The translations under genes and the position numbers were made by a program. A DNA stretch of 64,000 bases, taken from Haloprofundus halophilus. Its GTDB lineage: Archaea; Halobacteriota; Halobacteria; Halobacteriales; Haloferacaceae. This document shows, in pieces, positions 56,840 through 63,157 of the stretch (within the stretch, counting starts at the first letter, position 1; each line of letters starts with the position of its first letter). Below the pieces are notes generated by a model that saw only the letters and a program-made list of their open reading frames with translations, ran no database searches and was not told where the DNA came from. The DNA lies in the NCBI RefSeq assembly GCF_003439925.1, contig NZ_QQRR01000001.1, forward strand, positions 62,001-126,000, in the 5' to 3' direction.

Positions 56840-57673
56840 ATGACCGGTAGTGACTGGGGTGATTGGCTGCCGCGCGCCGTCGCGACGGCCGAACCCGAGA
56901 CTGTCGCCGTCTGGTATCTCGGCTGTAACGGCTTCGTCATCAAGGGGAACCGCGGGACGACGCTGCTCGTCGACCCGTATCTCGGCGTCGGCGACCCGCC
57001 GCGGACGGTCCGGATGATTCCGGTCCCGTTCAACCCCGAAGACGTCGAAGAAGCGGACGCGATTCTCGCGACCCACGAGCACACCGACCACGTCCACGGT
57101 CCGAGCCAAGCGCCGATTCTCGAACACACGGGAGCACAGTTTTACGCGCCCGACGACAGTCTCGCCGTCGCCCGCGAAGAAGAGAACTGGACGGACGTCT
57201 GGGACGTCAGCGACGACCAGTTCACCGAAGTCTCGGAGGGCGACTCCTTCGAGGTGGGCGAGTTCACGGTCCACGTCGAACTCGCCGCCGACGCCGACGC
57301 GACGCACCCGGTGAGCTACGTCGTCGAACACGACGCGGGCACCATCTTCCACGGCGGCGACACGAAACCGAGCGACGCGTTCGAGGATATCGGCGAGAAG
57401 TACGACATCGACCTCGGTATCCTCGCGTTCGGCTCGATCGGCAACATCCCCAACAAGGAGACCGGTGAGATGGTCCGCACGAAGTGGTACAGCACCGAAA
57501 ACGAGATCGTCGAAGCCGCCAGCAGTCTCCAGTTCGACCGCCTGCTGCCGAGCCACTGGGACATGTGGCGCGGGATGACCGCCGACCCGACGGCGCTGCA
57601 CGAACACGCCGCCAGCTACGCGTACCCGCGGGCGCTGACCATCGTCTCCATCGGCGACCGCGTCGACCTCTGA
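56840..57673 (+). CDS. MBL-fold metallohydrolase (UlaG-like)
   Basis: A 277-residue metallo-beta-lactamase-fold hydrolase. The metal motif is THEHTDHVHG (HxHxDH), with further ligands in the FHGGDTKPSDAF segment and near LPSHWDMWRG. N-terminal VWYLGCNGFVIKGNRGTTLLVDPYLG matches the UlaG (L-ascorbate-6-phosphate lactonase) group; GNIPNKETGEMV is also a characteristic segment. In haloarchaea the substrate may be a different phosphorylated lactone or phosphoester. It may be co-transcribed with the kinase-like gene upstream. Confidence 0.9.
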   Translation: MTGSDWGDWLPRAVATAEPETVAVWYLGCNGFVIKGNRGTTLLVDPYLGVGDPPRTVRMIPVPFNPEDVEEADAILATHEHTDHVHGPSQAPILEHTGAQFYAPDDSLAVAREEENWTDVWDVSDDQFTEVSEGDSFEVGEFTVHVELAADADATHPVSYVVEHDAGTIFHGGDTKPSDAFEDIGEKYDIDLGILAFGSIGNIPNKETGEMVRTKWYSTENEIVEAASSLQFDRLLPSHWDMWRGMTADPTALHEHAASYAYPRALTIVSIGDRVDL

Positions 57674-57872: not shown

Positions 57873-59453
57873 ATGAACCACGAGTCAGACCACGAAGGGA
57901 CGGTGACAGTCTCGGCGGGCGGGGTGAGCGTCGAAAAGACGTTCGCGGCCGAGGAGTTCCCGGTTCCTGCGATCAAGTTCGTCATCCGATCTGAGCGAGA
58001 CGACGTCGTCGACGTTCGACTCTCCGACGACATCCCGGAGTCGTTTTCGATGGAGCGTGTCGGCTTTCACCCCGACTACGAGAGCGCGAACTGGACCGCG
58101 TACGAGGACCAGTTCGTCGAGTACGAGCGCACGTTGGACCCCAAAGAGGAGGTTCTAACCGTCTACGGCGTTCGAGTCGGCGACGACGAGGACGTTTCGG
58201 CGTTTCTCACCGACCCGATGCTGGAGACGGTCGTCCCCGGCGACGGCGGCGACACCGTCAGTTCCGTCGTCGGAGACGACAGCTCCGAAGTGGTCCGCAA
58301 CGCGCTCGCGGACGAGGCGACGGCACTGCCCGGCCTGGAAGCGGACGGCCTCGACGCCCCGGAGTCGCCGGAATCCGCGTCGGACGACGCCGACGCACCG
58401 GAGCCACTCGAACTCGAAGACCCCCTCGCGGAGGACCCGCTGTCCGGGGTTACGGAGACGACCGACGCTCCGGTAGAGACAGCCGAGGACTCGGCAGAGT
58501 CGACGGAGCCAGCCACCGGCGCCGACGCCGACGAGGACCCCGAACCGCTGACGCTCGAAGACCCGCTTTCGACGCCCGACGAGACGGGCGGGTCGCCCGA
58601 ATCACCCGCTGAATCCGTCGACGAGAGTCCCGACGAGCGGACGTCGGGCCCCCGTTCGCTCTCGTCGGGCCTCTCCGCAGCGGTCGTCGCTCGCCCGCCG
58701 GACGCAGCACCGCTCGGCGCGCAGTTCGACGAAGTACCGGAGGGTACGCCGACCCCCGACGCCGACGTCGAAGAGACTCCGGCCGCCCCTGTCGACGCTT
58801 CCGATGCCGTCGATGCTTCCGATACCGTCGACGCTTCCGACACCGTCGACGCGTCCGACGCCGCACCATCTCCGCAGACGGGCGTCGCCGCGGCGCTCGC
58901 CGAGGAGATTCGGTCGGGGGCGGTCGACGACGACGACCTCGAACTGCTCCGCGACGAGCTCGACCTCGGCCTTCCACGGAGTGTCGACGTGCGGATTCGC
59001 CGCCTCCAATCGCAGATGAACGACCTCGATGCGTACTCCGACGCACTCGAGACGTTCATCGACGAGAACGGCACGGCCGACGAACTCGTCACCGACCTCC
59101 GAGCGGAACAGGAGTCGCTGTCGGCGACAGCCGACGAACTGGAGACCGACGTCGCCGCGTTGCGAGAGGACCGTTCCGAGTTGGAATCGACGGTCGACGA
59201 CGTCTCGGGTCGCCTCGACGACGTCGACGAGCGCGTCGATACCGTCGAGACGAGCGTCGAATCGCTCGACGACGAGATGGGCGAAGTCAGAAGCGACCTC
59301 GCGGACCTCGATTCGCACATCGTCTCCGTCGAGGAACTGAGCGCGGACGAACGCGCCGAACTGGAAGCCGAACTCGAACAGATTCGTCAGGAACTGGAGG
59401 CGCTCGATTCGTTCCGCGACCGCCTCAGTAGCGTTTTCGGCGGCGAACAGTAG
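57873..59453 (+). CDS. Acidic coiled-coil protein paired with a HisG-like protein
   Basis: A 526-residue protein in three parts. Residues 1-115 are an ordered beta-rich domain (VTVSAGGVSVEKTFAAEEF, FSMERVGFHPDYESANWTAYE, VLTVYGVRVGDDEDVSAFL). From memory this N-terminal domain is widespread in haloarchaea without known function. Residues about 115-345 are an acidic low-complexity linker with a VDASDxVDASDx five-residue repeat. Residues about 370-515 are a long coiled coil (RRLQSQMNDLDAYSDALETF through AELEAELEQIRQELEALDSF). No signal peptide or membrane segment is seen. A TATA-like TTTTATGT lies about 30 bases upstream. The HisG-like gene follows after 81 bases. Confidence 0.75.
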   Translation: MNHESDHEGTVTVSAGGVSVEKTFAAEEFPVPAIKFVIRSERDDVVDVRLSDDIPESFSMERVGFHPDYESANWTAYEDQFVEYERTLDPKEEVLTVYGVRVGDDEDVSAFLTDPMLETVVPGDGGDTVSSVVGDDSSEVVRNALADEATALPGLEADGLDAPESPESASDDADAPEPLELEDPLAEDPLSGVTETTDAPVETAEDSAESTEPATGADADEDPEPLTLEDPLSTPDETGGSPESPAESVDESPDERTSGPRSLSSGLSAAVVARPPDAAPLGAQFDEVPEGTPTPDADVEETPAAPVDASDAVDASDTVDASDTVDASDAAPSPQTGVAAALAEEIRSGAVDDDDLELLRDELDLGLPRSVDVRIRRLQSQMNDLDAYSDALETFIDENGTADELVTDLRAEQESLSATADELETDVAALREDRSELESTVDDVSGRLDDVDERVDTVETSVESLDDEMGEVRSDLADLDSHIVSVEELSADERAELEAELEQIRQELEALDSFRDRLSSVFGGEQ

Positions 59454-59534
59454 TCCCGTCGACCCGGACACGAGTTCTCTGGAGAATCTCCCGAAACGTA
59501 ATCGGTTTACGACGCCGCCCCCTCTCAGCGGACA

Positions 59535-60443
59535 ATGACGCAGACCGTGTCCGTCGCCGTCCCACGGAAGGGACGCCCGCTCGAAGCGGTACTCGAACGT
59601 TTCGCGACCGTGGCGGGCACGCATTCGCATTCGGTCGCCGACGAGATTTCCTCGACACTCCGCTACGAGAAGTCGGTCACGAAAGGGAACACCGACGACG
59701 ACCGGACAGTGTACGAACGGCTCGGCGAGTACAGCGAGCTCTCGGACCCGAACGAACCCGAGTACACCCTGTTACGAGACGGACGCGCCGGACTGCCGCG
59801 ACGCATCGTCTTCGACAGCGTCACGCTCTCACTCGACGGCGTCGACGTCCAACTCGTCGGCCGCGAGGAACCGTTCCGCGCGCTTCGGACCCACGAGTTC
59901 GCCCTCGGATTCGACAGCGCGGATCTCGTTCTCGAAGAGGTCGTCAGCCTCGAACCCGACGGTATCGGCAGTATCGACGACATCAACGCCCGAATCGACC
60001 CGATGGAGTCCGACGTTCGTGTCGTCACCGGCCTCGGCGACACCGTCTACCACACGCTGATGGCGACGCCGGAGGTGCTGCCCGCGGGAGCGACGCTCGA
60101 CCGCTCGTTCGTCGCCGACTACGAGGGACCACTGTGCATCTCGCCGCGGTACGAACGGCTCGTCGAGGCGGTGCTCGGAACGGACACCATCGAAAACGTC
60201 GCGTTCCGATACCCCGACGCAGACGACGGGAGGGAAGAGGAAGCCGCCATCGCCGACACTGGCCTCGGCGTCTATCTCACGATGACGGGGTCGACCGCTC
60301 GCGACCACGGTCTCGTCCTCGGCGACCACCTGTTCCCGAGTGAAACCGTGTTGATGGAGAACGATGCCGAACGGGGCAGCGCGATCGACCGGGTCAAGGC
60401 GATTCTCTCCGACGTCTCCGAGGAGACGGCTATTCGAGCGTAA
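59535..60443 (+). CDS. HisG-fold protein of unknown function
   Basis: A 302-residue protein. The start SVAVPRKGRPLEAVLERF matches the N-terminus of ATP phosphoribosyltransferase HisG (AVPxKGRL). Further on, IADTGLGVYLTMTGSTARDH aligns with the HisG stretch around the PRPP loop (DxVxTGxTLxxN), but several of the canonical residues differ. The region between is acidic and unlike HisG. It therefore has the periplasmic-binding-like HisG fold but probably not the histidine-pathway activity. The location next to a coiled-coil protein, away from any his genes, supports a new role. Own TATA-like GGTTTACGA about 28 bases upstream. Confidence 0.6.
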   Translation: MTQTVSVAVPRKGRPLEAVLERFATVAGTHSHSVADEISSTLRYEKSVTKGNTDDDRTVYERLGEYSELSDPNEPEYTLLRDGRAGLPRRIVFDSVTLSLDGVDVQLVGREEPFRALRTHEFALGFDSADLVLEEVVSLEPDGIGSIDDINARIDPMESDVRVVTGLGDTVYHTLMATPEVLPAGATLDRSFVADYEGPLCISPRYERLVEAVLGTDTIENVAFRYPDADDGREEEAAIADTGLGVYLTMTGSTARDHGLVLGDHLFPSETVLMENDAERGSAIDRVKAILSDVSEETAIRA

Positions 60444-60631: not shown

Positions 60632-60677
60632 TCGTGCGTAGGGATAACTTGATGTGGGGTCGCTCCGACGCCAAACC

Positions 60678-61073
60678 GTGAGCGAACCGGACACCAGTCG
60701 GTCGTCGGTGAAGACGTACGTGCCGACGTACCAGAAAGAACAGTGGGCCGACCACGCCGCCGAACTCGGGATGACCCAAAGCGAGTTCGTTCGGACGATG
60801 GTCCAGGCGGGTCGGCGCGACTTCGATCTCGACGCGTCGGACGAGAATCTGGAGGCCCCTGTCGAGGGCTCGAACCCCGGGGGTGACGTGCTCGAAGACC
60901 GGGTGCAAGAAGTACTCCACCGACGGGGCGTCATGTCGTGGAACCAACTCGTCGAGGCGCTCTCGGGAGATTTCGAGAGTCGGTTGGAAGACGCCCTCGA
61001 CTCGTTGCAGTCGGCGAACCGCGTCCGGTACAACGGACGGGAAGGAGGATACGTGGTGACTGATGGCGAGTGA
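60678..61073 (+). CDS. DUF5805-like DNA-binding protein
   Basis: A 131-residue protein. The N-terminal half (KTYVPTYQKEQWADHAAELGMTQSEFVRTMVQAGRRDF) looks like a ribbon-helix-helix module. The C-terminal half (VLEDRVQEVLHRRGVMSWNQLVEAL and LDSLQSANRVRYNGREGGYV) looks like a winged helix. From memory it corresponds to the haloarchaeal DUF5805 family, commonly found next to a tyrosine recombinase. GTG start chosen at 60678. It overlaps the recombinase start by 11 bases, so the two proteins are made together and may act on the same DNA site. Confidence 0.72.
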   Translation: MSEPDTSRSSVKTYVPTYQKEQWADHAAELGMTQSEFVRTMVQAGRRDFDLDASDENLEAPVEGSNPGGDVLEDRVQEVLHRRGVMSWNQLVEALSGDFESRLEDALDSLQSANRVRYNGREGGYVVTDGE

Positions 61074-62124
61074 GTCGACCGGAACGGGCGAAGAAACCGA
61101 CGACCCCATCGGTTACTTCCTCCAGGACATGGTGTACCACGGCAAGTCCGAACGAACGAGAACCGAGTACGAACGGGTGCTGCGTCGGTTCGAATCGTTC
61201 CTCGCCGACCCGGACCGGAATCCGGCGGGCCGGTCGGTCGTCCCCGCCGACGCCACCCACCGCGACTGCATGGCGTGGGTCCACTCGCTTCGCGGCACCG
61301 TCGCGTCGAGTACGGTCGCCATCTACGCCGCGTACCTCCACAGATTCTACGGTTACATGACGCAGGTCGGCGTCTTCGACTCCAACCCGATGACGCTCGT
61401 CACCGAGGAGATGGACGAGTCCATCGAGAAAGACCCGACCCGCCGCGACATCGACGTCCCGACGATGCGGGCGTTCGTCGCCGACGTTCGACATCCGCTC
61501 CACCACGCGCTCGTCGGGACGTTTCTCAAAACCGGCATCCGAGTGGGCGAGCTCTGTAACCTCGACCTCCGGGACGTGTCGCTCGAGGACTCGGAGCTGA
61601 CGAACGCTTACGACCTCGGCGGACGACCCCAACTGGACGCCCGCCCGAACTCGATTTTCGTCTCTTCGAGTCCGACGGTCGGCGAACGACACAACGGCGA
61701 GGTCCGGTCGGCGTCGAACAAGCGGAAACGCGACACCGTGATACCGGTCGACGACGAACTCTCTCGGCTCCTGAAATCGTGGCTGGCGATCCGTCCCGAC
61801 TCCGTCTCACCCGCCGACCCGCTGTTCGTGGGGACGAGCGAGGGATGGGGTGAACGACTCACGCCGAACGCCGTCCACAATATCGTCACCACGTACGCGA
61901 GCGAGGCGGGGTGGTACCGCTCCGGGGGCGGTGCGACCGAGAACGTCACGCCGCACTACTTCCGGCACTTCTTCACCACCCATCTCCGGGACCGGACCGG
62001 CGACCGGGGTATCGTCAAGTATCTTCGCGGCGACGTCGCAACCGACATCATCGATACGTACACCCACAACTGGGGGGGACAGGTTCGGGAGACGTACGAG
62101 TCGAACATCTACTCGATACTCTGA
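61063..62124 (+). CDS. Tyrosine recombinase (XerC/D or integrase type)
   Basis: A 353-residue site-specific recombinase with an N-terminal SAM-like core-binding domain (about 15-125) and a catalytic domain. The active-site set is complete: R160 (TGIRVGEL), K220 or K222, H298 and R301 in HYFRHFFTTHL, H335 in YTHNWG, and the nucleophile tyrosine, most likely Y345 (Y350 is an alternative). The end (RETYESNIYSIL) matches haloarchaeal XerC/D-like proteins rather than phage integrases with long tails. No phage genes are nearby. It may be a chromosomal or plasmid resolution enzyme working with the overlapping DUF5805-like protein. Confidence 0.9.
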   Translation: MASESTGTGEETDDPIGYFLQDMVYHGKSERTRTEYERVLRRFESFLADPDRNPAGRSVVPADATHRDCMAWVHSLRGTVASSTVAIYAAYLHRFYGYMTQVGVFDSNPMTLVTEEMDESIEKDPTRRDIDVPTMRAFVADVRHPLHHALVGTFLKTGIRVGELCNLDLRDVSLEDSELTNAYDLGGRPQLDARPNSIFVSSSPTVGERHNGEVRSASNKRKRDTVIPVDDELSRLLKSWLAIRPDSVSPADPLFVGTSEGWGERLTPNAVHNIVTTYASEAGWYRSGGGATENVTPHYFRHFFTTHLRDRTGDRGIVKYLRGDVATDIIDTYTHNWGGQVRETYESNIYSIL

Positions 62125-62452: not shown

Positions 62453-63157
62453 TCACGCCGGATTCACTTCTTCGACCAACGTCGGAGAGTCGTTCGCGGG
62501 GCTGTTCACCCGCGTCGAGACCGGATACGCACGCATCTCGGCTTCGGGATAGGGGTCCAAGAGCGTCGACGCGGTGTCGGCGTCGGCGGAGAGCCACTTC
62601 TCTTCTTCCTCGAGCGAGAGGACGACGGCCATTCGGTCGTGAAGCGGCGATACGACGCCGTTGGGCTCTGTCGTGATGATTGCGAACGTCTCTATCGGCT
62701 CAGGGTCACCCGCCCCGTCGTCGGTGAACTCGTCGAGTCCGGTCTGGGCCTCCGGCGGCGTCCACCGCTCCCAGATACCGGCCATGGCGAACGGGCGGTC
62801 GTCCTCGAACGCCACTCGGTACGGCTGTTTGCCGTCGCCGTTCTCGCGCGGGGTCCACTCGTAGAAGCCGTCGGCGGGCACGAGACAGCGACGCCGCTCG
62901 AACGCGTCGCGGAAACTCCGCTTCTCGGCGACGCTCTCGGCGCGGGCGTTGATGAACGACTTCGAACGCGACTCCGCCCACTCGGGGATGAACCCCCACT
63001 GGACGAACCGCAGGGTGTCGGGCGCGTCGTTCGTGACGACCGGCAGTCGCTGGCCCGGAGCGCAGTTGTACCGCGCTTTCAGCGGGCGCTCGGCGGTCAC
63101 CTCGAATCGCTCTTCGAGTTCGGGTTGCGGGGTGAAGAGGGTGTAGCGGCCACACAT
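62453..63157 (-). CDS. SRAP-domain abasic-site protein (HMCES/YedK family)
   Basis: A 234-residue SOS-response-associated peptidase-like protein. It caps abasic sites in single-stranded DNA through a thiazolidine link formed by the second residue. C2 is present at the very N-terminus (MCGRYT), together with N70 (SFINARAES), E100 (ADGFYEW) and H173 (PLHDRM), the residues used by HMCES and YedK. GRYTLFTP and RYNCAPGQRLPVV are typical. The ATG at 63157 puts Cys at position 2, which fixes the start. Divergent from the exonuclease gene, so the two DNA-related genes share a promoter region. Confidence 0.95.
   Translation of the reverse strand: MCGRYTLFTPQPELEERFEVTAERPLKARYNCAPGQRLPVVTNDAPDTLRFVQWGFIPEWAESRSKSFINARAESVAEKRSFRDAFERRRCLVPADGFYEWTPRENGDGKQPYRVAFEDDRPFAMAGIWERWTPPEAQTGLDEFTDDGAGDPEPIETFAIITTEPNGVVSPLHDRMAVVLSLEEEEKWLSADADTASTLLDPYPEAEMRAYPVSTRVNSPANDSPTLVEEVNPA

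Follow-up and report, generated by a model that had tools for sequence, protein, structure and literature searches.

The closest described systems to the locus considered here are the HisG proteins (PF01634), which are ATP phosphoribosyltransferases of histidine synthesis with long and short forms, the HisG-S/HisZ pairs, and the L-ascorbate-6-phosphate lactonase UlaG. In the HisG of Psychrobacter arcticus, R32 and R56 are catalytically important, with a 25-fold loss of activity in R32A and a 42-fold loss in R56A. The D179A/N and C115A variants of the same enzyme are only about 4-fold impaired and C115S, unlike C115A, is strongly impaired (PMC9734150).

The window, a stretch of 64,000 nucleotides from Haloprofundus halophilus, contains a gene (P2) whose product resembles both forms of HisG in predicted fold, in the order of its elements, in an N-terminal (K)GR motif and in a TG-x-T phosphate loop with a flanking VDI/VYL strand and a helix after it. 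P2 differs from HisG in several respects: the PRPP-strand aspartate is Tyr247, the cysteine of the GxCR motif is changed, a conserved and P2-specific insertion of ~60 residues (about residues 28-88) follows helix 1, the interlobe loop is longer, there is no ACT-like third domain, and the gene lies away from the his genes in a genome that also has a true HisG. Like the HisG-S of a HisG-S/HisZ pair, P2 is a two-lobe HisG without the third domain, near a second conserved gene. The product of that gene (P1), however, is a beta-sandwich and coiled-coil protein and not a histidyl-tRNA-synthetase paralogue. The gene upstream of both encodes a protein that shares with UlaG the metallo-beta-lactamase fold and a HEHTDH motif (E 1e-16 against PDB UlaG 2wyl), but which falls far under the cut-off of the NCBIfam L-ascorbate-6-phosphate lactonase model (E 1.2e-26; 93.5 bits against a cut-off of 306).

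The two open reading frames named in a preliminary description of this DNA are both present (Table 1), with a spacer of 81 bases between them, and they are real genes, as orthologues are found across the class. That description was also correct in placing neither gene near the his genes. P2 begins at position 121535 of its contig, with HisG, HisB and HisI at 1634236, 1842709 and 1850432 of the same contig and HisD on a different one; the canonical HisG is 1.5 Mb from P2.

Table 1. Features of the P1/P2 region, in window coordinates.
Feature	Coordinates	Strand	Basis or remarks
UlaG-like metallo-beta-lactamase-fold hydrolase	56840..57673	+	Upstream of P1/P2; Pfam Lactamase_B_2, E 1.3e-19
P1 (beta-sandwich and coiled-coil protein, 526 aa)	57873..59453	+	ORF; 19-orthologue alignment
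P2 core promoter/operator, conserved, predicted	59494..59511	+	Class consensus GAAACGCAACYCGTTTA (AAACG-N5-CGTTT); window copy AAACGTAATCGGTTTACG
P2 (HisG-fold protein, 302 aa)	59535..60443	+	ORF; orthologues; AlphaFold and Foldseek
DUF5805/ribbon-helix-helix-like protein	60654..61073	+	Pfam DUF5805, E 1.1e-26
XerC-like tyrosine recombinase	61063..62124	+	Pfam Phage_integrase, E 6.8e-16
SRAP (HMCES-like) SOS-response-associated peptidase	62453..63157	-	E 6.5e-71

No Pfam or NCBIfam family matches P2 above threshold, searches of the PDB by sequence (single-sequence and profile) returned nothing relevant, and the single annotated plasmid copy that was found is labelled hypothetical. The Pfam HisG family matches 39 of 68 non-redundant P2 orthologues (best E 5.4e-5), with a runner-up family matching 6, and the P2 of the window itself gives E 0.074 and 13.4 bits. 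A six-frame search of the relatives with PF01634, made to locate canonical HisG, also detected P2 orthologues in seven genomes (E 2e-5 to 7e-4), the best of these matches covering positions 8-154 of the 158 in the profile; no P2 score reaches the curated cut-off of 25.5 bits, with the best orthologue at 25.0 bits in this search. Profile-profile comparison gave weak values of 9% with a narrow haloarchaeal HisG profile and 42% with a slightly broader one, and the hhalign result for the haloarchaeal profile is uninformative because both profiles are narrow.

An AlphaFold model of P2 built only from P2 orthologues is of middling quality (pLDDT 74, pTM 0.50). The HisG fold proposed in the preliminary description nevertheless finds its structural match, since every one of the best 48 PDB matches to the model in Foldseek is an ATP phosphoribosyltransferase (E 5.6e-7, probability 1.00), with TM values to the HisG matches of ~0.32-0.42 by query length. 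The elements of the model are arranged as in domains I and II of HisG. Residues 29-66 form additional helices, the second lobe is HisG-like and carries the phosphate loop, and the histidine-binding third domain is missing. These structure and profile matches support the assignment of P2 as a distant HisG paralogue with a predicted HisG fold.

The HisG-like N-terminal and PRPP-loop-like motifs with changed key residues that had been reported for P2 are real. Its N-terminal AVPRKGRP (KGR motif, residues 10-16) aligns to AVPNKGRL of HisG, its C-terminal TG-S-T-A loop (phosphate loop TGST, residues 251-254) aligns to TGTTL, and VYLTMTGSTARDHGL of P2 is aligned onto VDITSTGTTLRVNRL of HisG. The PRPP-loop pattern, TG-x-T after an aspartate, is only partly kept, with TG-S-T present and the position of HisG D155 occupied by Tyr247 in 120 of 120 P2 orthologues. 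In the same 120 sequences G252 and T254 never vary, and position 251 is occupied by Thr or Ser. Altogether 118 of the 302 positions are conserved at 97% or more, including K12-G13-R14, E45-K46, R81-D82-x-R84, R89-R90 (R89 being Arg in 119/120), R110-E111-E112 and D130 in the N-terminal part and R205-Y206-E207-R208, Y247 and T251-G-S-T254 in the C-terminal part. This conservation is denser than a passive fold would predict.

The residues probed in Psychrobacter arcticus HisG (R32, R56, D179 and C115) were equated with R10, R32, D155 and C90 of the haloarchaeal enzyme on the basis of the spacing between motifs, not of a printed alignment, and map to R14, R89/R90, Y247 and T170 of P2, respectively. 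The match between R14 and the arginine of the HisG KGR motif is firm. R89/R90 are matched to R32/K33 of HisG by the order of secondary-structure elements only, because the middle of the alignment does not reach statistical significance. The replacements in P2 thus seem to fall at positions that are dispensable in HisG; since the altered residues are the less important ones, the changed key residues do not in themselves indicate a dead enzyme. The threonine at the C115 position may not be neutral, given the strong impairment of C115S.

The reading preferred here, at a probability of roughly 0.45, is that P2 is a PRPP protein, either active or ligand-binding, whose role is other than histidine synthesis. 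Equally tentatively, P2 may be taken as the type member of a subfamily that is restricted to Halobacteria, originated from a HisG-type ATP phosphoribosyltransferase and acquired another job. Such a protein would use its interlobe cleft to bind PRPP or a different 5'-phosphoribosyl compound. The invariant arginines R14 and, by position, R89/R90 may hold or expel pyrophosphate there, and the P2-specific insertion may fit the site to an acceptor that is not ATP. Given the kept arginines and the putative role of the insertion, it would be likelier that P2 is an enzyme than that it is a dead sensor. Against this PRPP reading, the loss of the ribose-side aspartate could also mean that the PRPP chemistry has been lost.

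The distribution of P2 bears on whether its role could lie in histidine synthesis after all. Among 393 genomes drawn from the phylum, P2 was detected as a single-copy gene in 72 of 81 Halobacteria, the count of 81 including nine genomes without it, and in none of the ~310 other genomes. All 72 strong matches fall inside the order, and two weak matches outside it proved to be ordinary HisG proteins. Among 60 relatives, a search at E <= 0.001 gave 44 matches, the weakest of which (genome G049) is a canonical HisG. The other 43 genomes have one P2 each, mostly 66-96% identical. Canonical HisG is found in 283 of 292 Halobacteria. The nine that lack it (G006, G033, G430, G521, G013, G506, G246, G474 and G478) all keep HisD and HisI, so that histidine synthesis is apparently left without its first step.

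Eight of these nine genomes carry P2, as would be the case if P2 served histidine synthesis as a second or reserve ATP phosphoribosyltransferase, but this proportion equals the base rate (72/81), and replacement of HisG by P2 is therefore unsupported. The remaining genome, G478, keeps HisD and HisI with neither HisG nor P2, while P2 is kept in nearly all genomes that do have HisG. The Asp155 to Tyr change and the absent feedback domain also argue against this function, and we consider it highly unlikely. Searches for HisG, HisD, HisB and HisI gave no support for P2 as a substitute in this pathway: the his genes are distant, HisG is present, and P2 is not enriched where HisG is missing.

P1 has the architecture originally suggested for it, namely a beta-rich domain, an acidic linker and a coiled coil, as confirmed by AlphaFold, composition and a heptad test, respectively. 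The N-terminal domain (residues 1-120) is an all-beta sandwich, modelled with a pLDDT of 87 and a pTM of 0.78. It is followed by a linker (residues 126-338) with 27% D+E and 2% K+R, the length of which varies greatly between orthologues in the 19-orthologue alignment, and by a conserved block (residues 339-400) that carries 'RLQSQMNDLDAYSDALETFIDENGTADEL'. The coiled coil (residues 395-526) has a heptad power of 5.4, compared with 0.47 in shuffled sequences, none of 1000 of which reach 5.4, and 82% of its a/d positions are hydrophobic. A C-terminal motif, FRDRLSSVFG, is also conserved. A Pfam search found no family for the N-terminal domain, and its best PDB matches in Foldseek (E >0.001) are to adaptor domains with a generic beta-sandwich. 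Matches of the coiled coil to SMC, Rad50, ASRP and TMF DNA-binding proteins were rejected as homology because they are composition-driven and under every cut-off. Domains related to the N-terminal one are also present in other proteins, some of which have hydrophobic, membrane-like segments in their C-terminal part (L226:5572-6999 and L233:3795-5846). P1 itself would be a soluble protein and probably an oligomeric adaptor.

The pairing of P1 and P2 put forward in the preliminary description holds as a neighbourhood and is weak as a pattern of presence and absence. P2 immediately follows P1 in 65 of 80 named loci, and the two are adjacent in 38 of the 39 genomes that have both; this usual adjacency supports the claim of a conserved neighbourhood. 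Of the 47 genomes of high quality, 38 carry the two genes together, 4 have P1 only, 3 have P2 only and 2 have neither (hypergeometric p about 0.12, computed by hand), and co-occurrence is not obligate, as each gene is also found alone. The UlaG-like gene is upstream in 69 of the 80 loci. In Natronococcus and Halalkalicoccus (five named loci) it stands directly before P2, with P1 absent there; several genomes without P2 retain it next to P1; and in Halogranum and Halobium a gene on the opposite strand lies between P1 and P2.

In Halolamina, P2 (L238:8034-8939) has neither P1 nor the UlaG-like gene as a neighbour and is located behind an archaeal-type GTP cyclohydrolase (L238:6921-7679; NCBIfam GTP cyclohydrolase IIa, E 5.6e-117). 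A general association of P2 with riboflavin/F420 genes was rejected because P2 is beside a GTP cyclohydrolase only in this genus.

The adjacency in 65 of 80 loci, the changed ribose-side aspartate, and the combination in P1 of a coiled coil with a beta-sandwich resembling peptide-binding adaptor domains (no Foldseek E reaching 0.001) would all fit a catalytically dead, HisG-fold PRPP or nucleotide sensor that acts via P1 as a coiled-coil scaffold. However, P2 occurs without P1 in Halolamina, Natronococcus, Halalkalicoccus and genome G009, P1 occurs without P2 in G038, G039, G044 and G046, and P2 has a conserved promoter of its own; the dense invariant charged residues and the retention of both mapped arginines also speak against a dead protein. 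The sensor-plus-scaffold model is possible but unlikely, and is not favoured over a HisG paralogue with a phosphoribosyl substrate.

That promoter was defined from column frequencies in 60 non-redundant upstream regions and 100 loci. It has a TATA-like TTTA at -28 to -25, overlapped by the AAACG-N5-CGTTT palindrome, and is of the leaderless type, with a Shine-Dalgarno sequence before P2 in only 7%. Conserved TATA-like elements are also found ~28 bases before the starts of P1 and the UlaG-like gene. Since each of the three genes has its own promoter-like element, they are best described as a conserved cluster and not clearly as one operon.

In 11 of 13 genomes of family f7, the P2 palindrome occurs once per genome, just before P2 (<=1 mismatch), while G031 has two extra matches with one mismatch. 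A search of 16 genomes for a regulon of this operator at <=1 mismatch gave no clue, because in the f7 genomes it was found only before P2, the extra matches in G031 aside. The consistent position of the palindrome before P2, wherever it was found in f7 genomes, would suit a regulator that responds to a ligand and binds the promoter of its own gene, but domain searches of P2 detected no DNA-binding domain (scattered weak matches only), and a well-conserved core promoter could account for much of the pattern. Autoregulation by P2 is accordingly regarded as extremely improbable.

The separate promoter-like elements, the intervening genes and the fact that any of the three genes may be absent are all compatible with the UlaG-like hydrolase, P1 and P2 being mere syntenic neighbours with unrelated housekeeping roles. 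This explanation is doubtful, as the three genes keep the same arrangement, both in order and in orientation, in several families of Halobacteria while other neighbours differ. By virtue of the shared neighbourhood, P1 and the UlaG-like hydrolase may take part in the same process as P2, within the limits set by the individual promoter-like elements and by the ability of P1 to vanish while P2 stays.

An extension of the preferred reading, in which P2 acts as a phosphoribosyltransferase on a new acceptor, works with the UlaG-like hydrolase and is organised by its coiled-coil partner, is speculative and rather improbable. If true, it would mean that nearly all haloarchaea have a PRPP-consuming reaction which the other archaea searched in this phylum lack. 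A literature search for archaeal HisG-like proteins and for HisG relatives outside histidine synthesis yielded nothing specific, so a PRPP-using or PRPP-binding role for P2 would, if correct, be new biochemistry. P2 is in any case a highly conserved, near-universal and unexplained haloarchaeal protein, and Haloferax offers a tractable model group for its study.

Several other genes recur around the cluster. The DUF5805 gene, a frequent downstream neighbour, is near the cluster in 40 of the 80 named loci in either orientation, and the XerC-like recombinase gene, its pair partner, in 39; in the window, the two overlap, and they form a conserved pair that occurs in both orientations. An SRAP peptidase gene follows them on the opposite strand (Table 1). 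The diphthamide synthase gene Dph2 is found near the UlaG-like gene, within the 6 kb flank, in 30 of the 80 loci (for example at L139:3997-5043).
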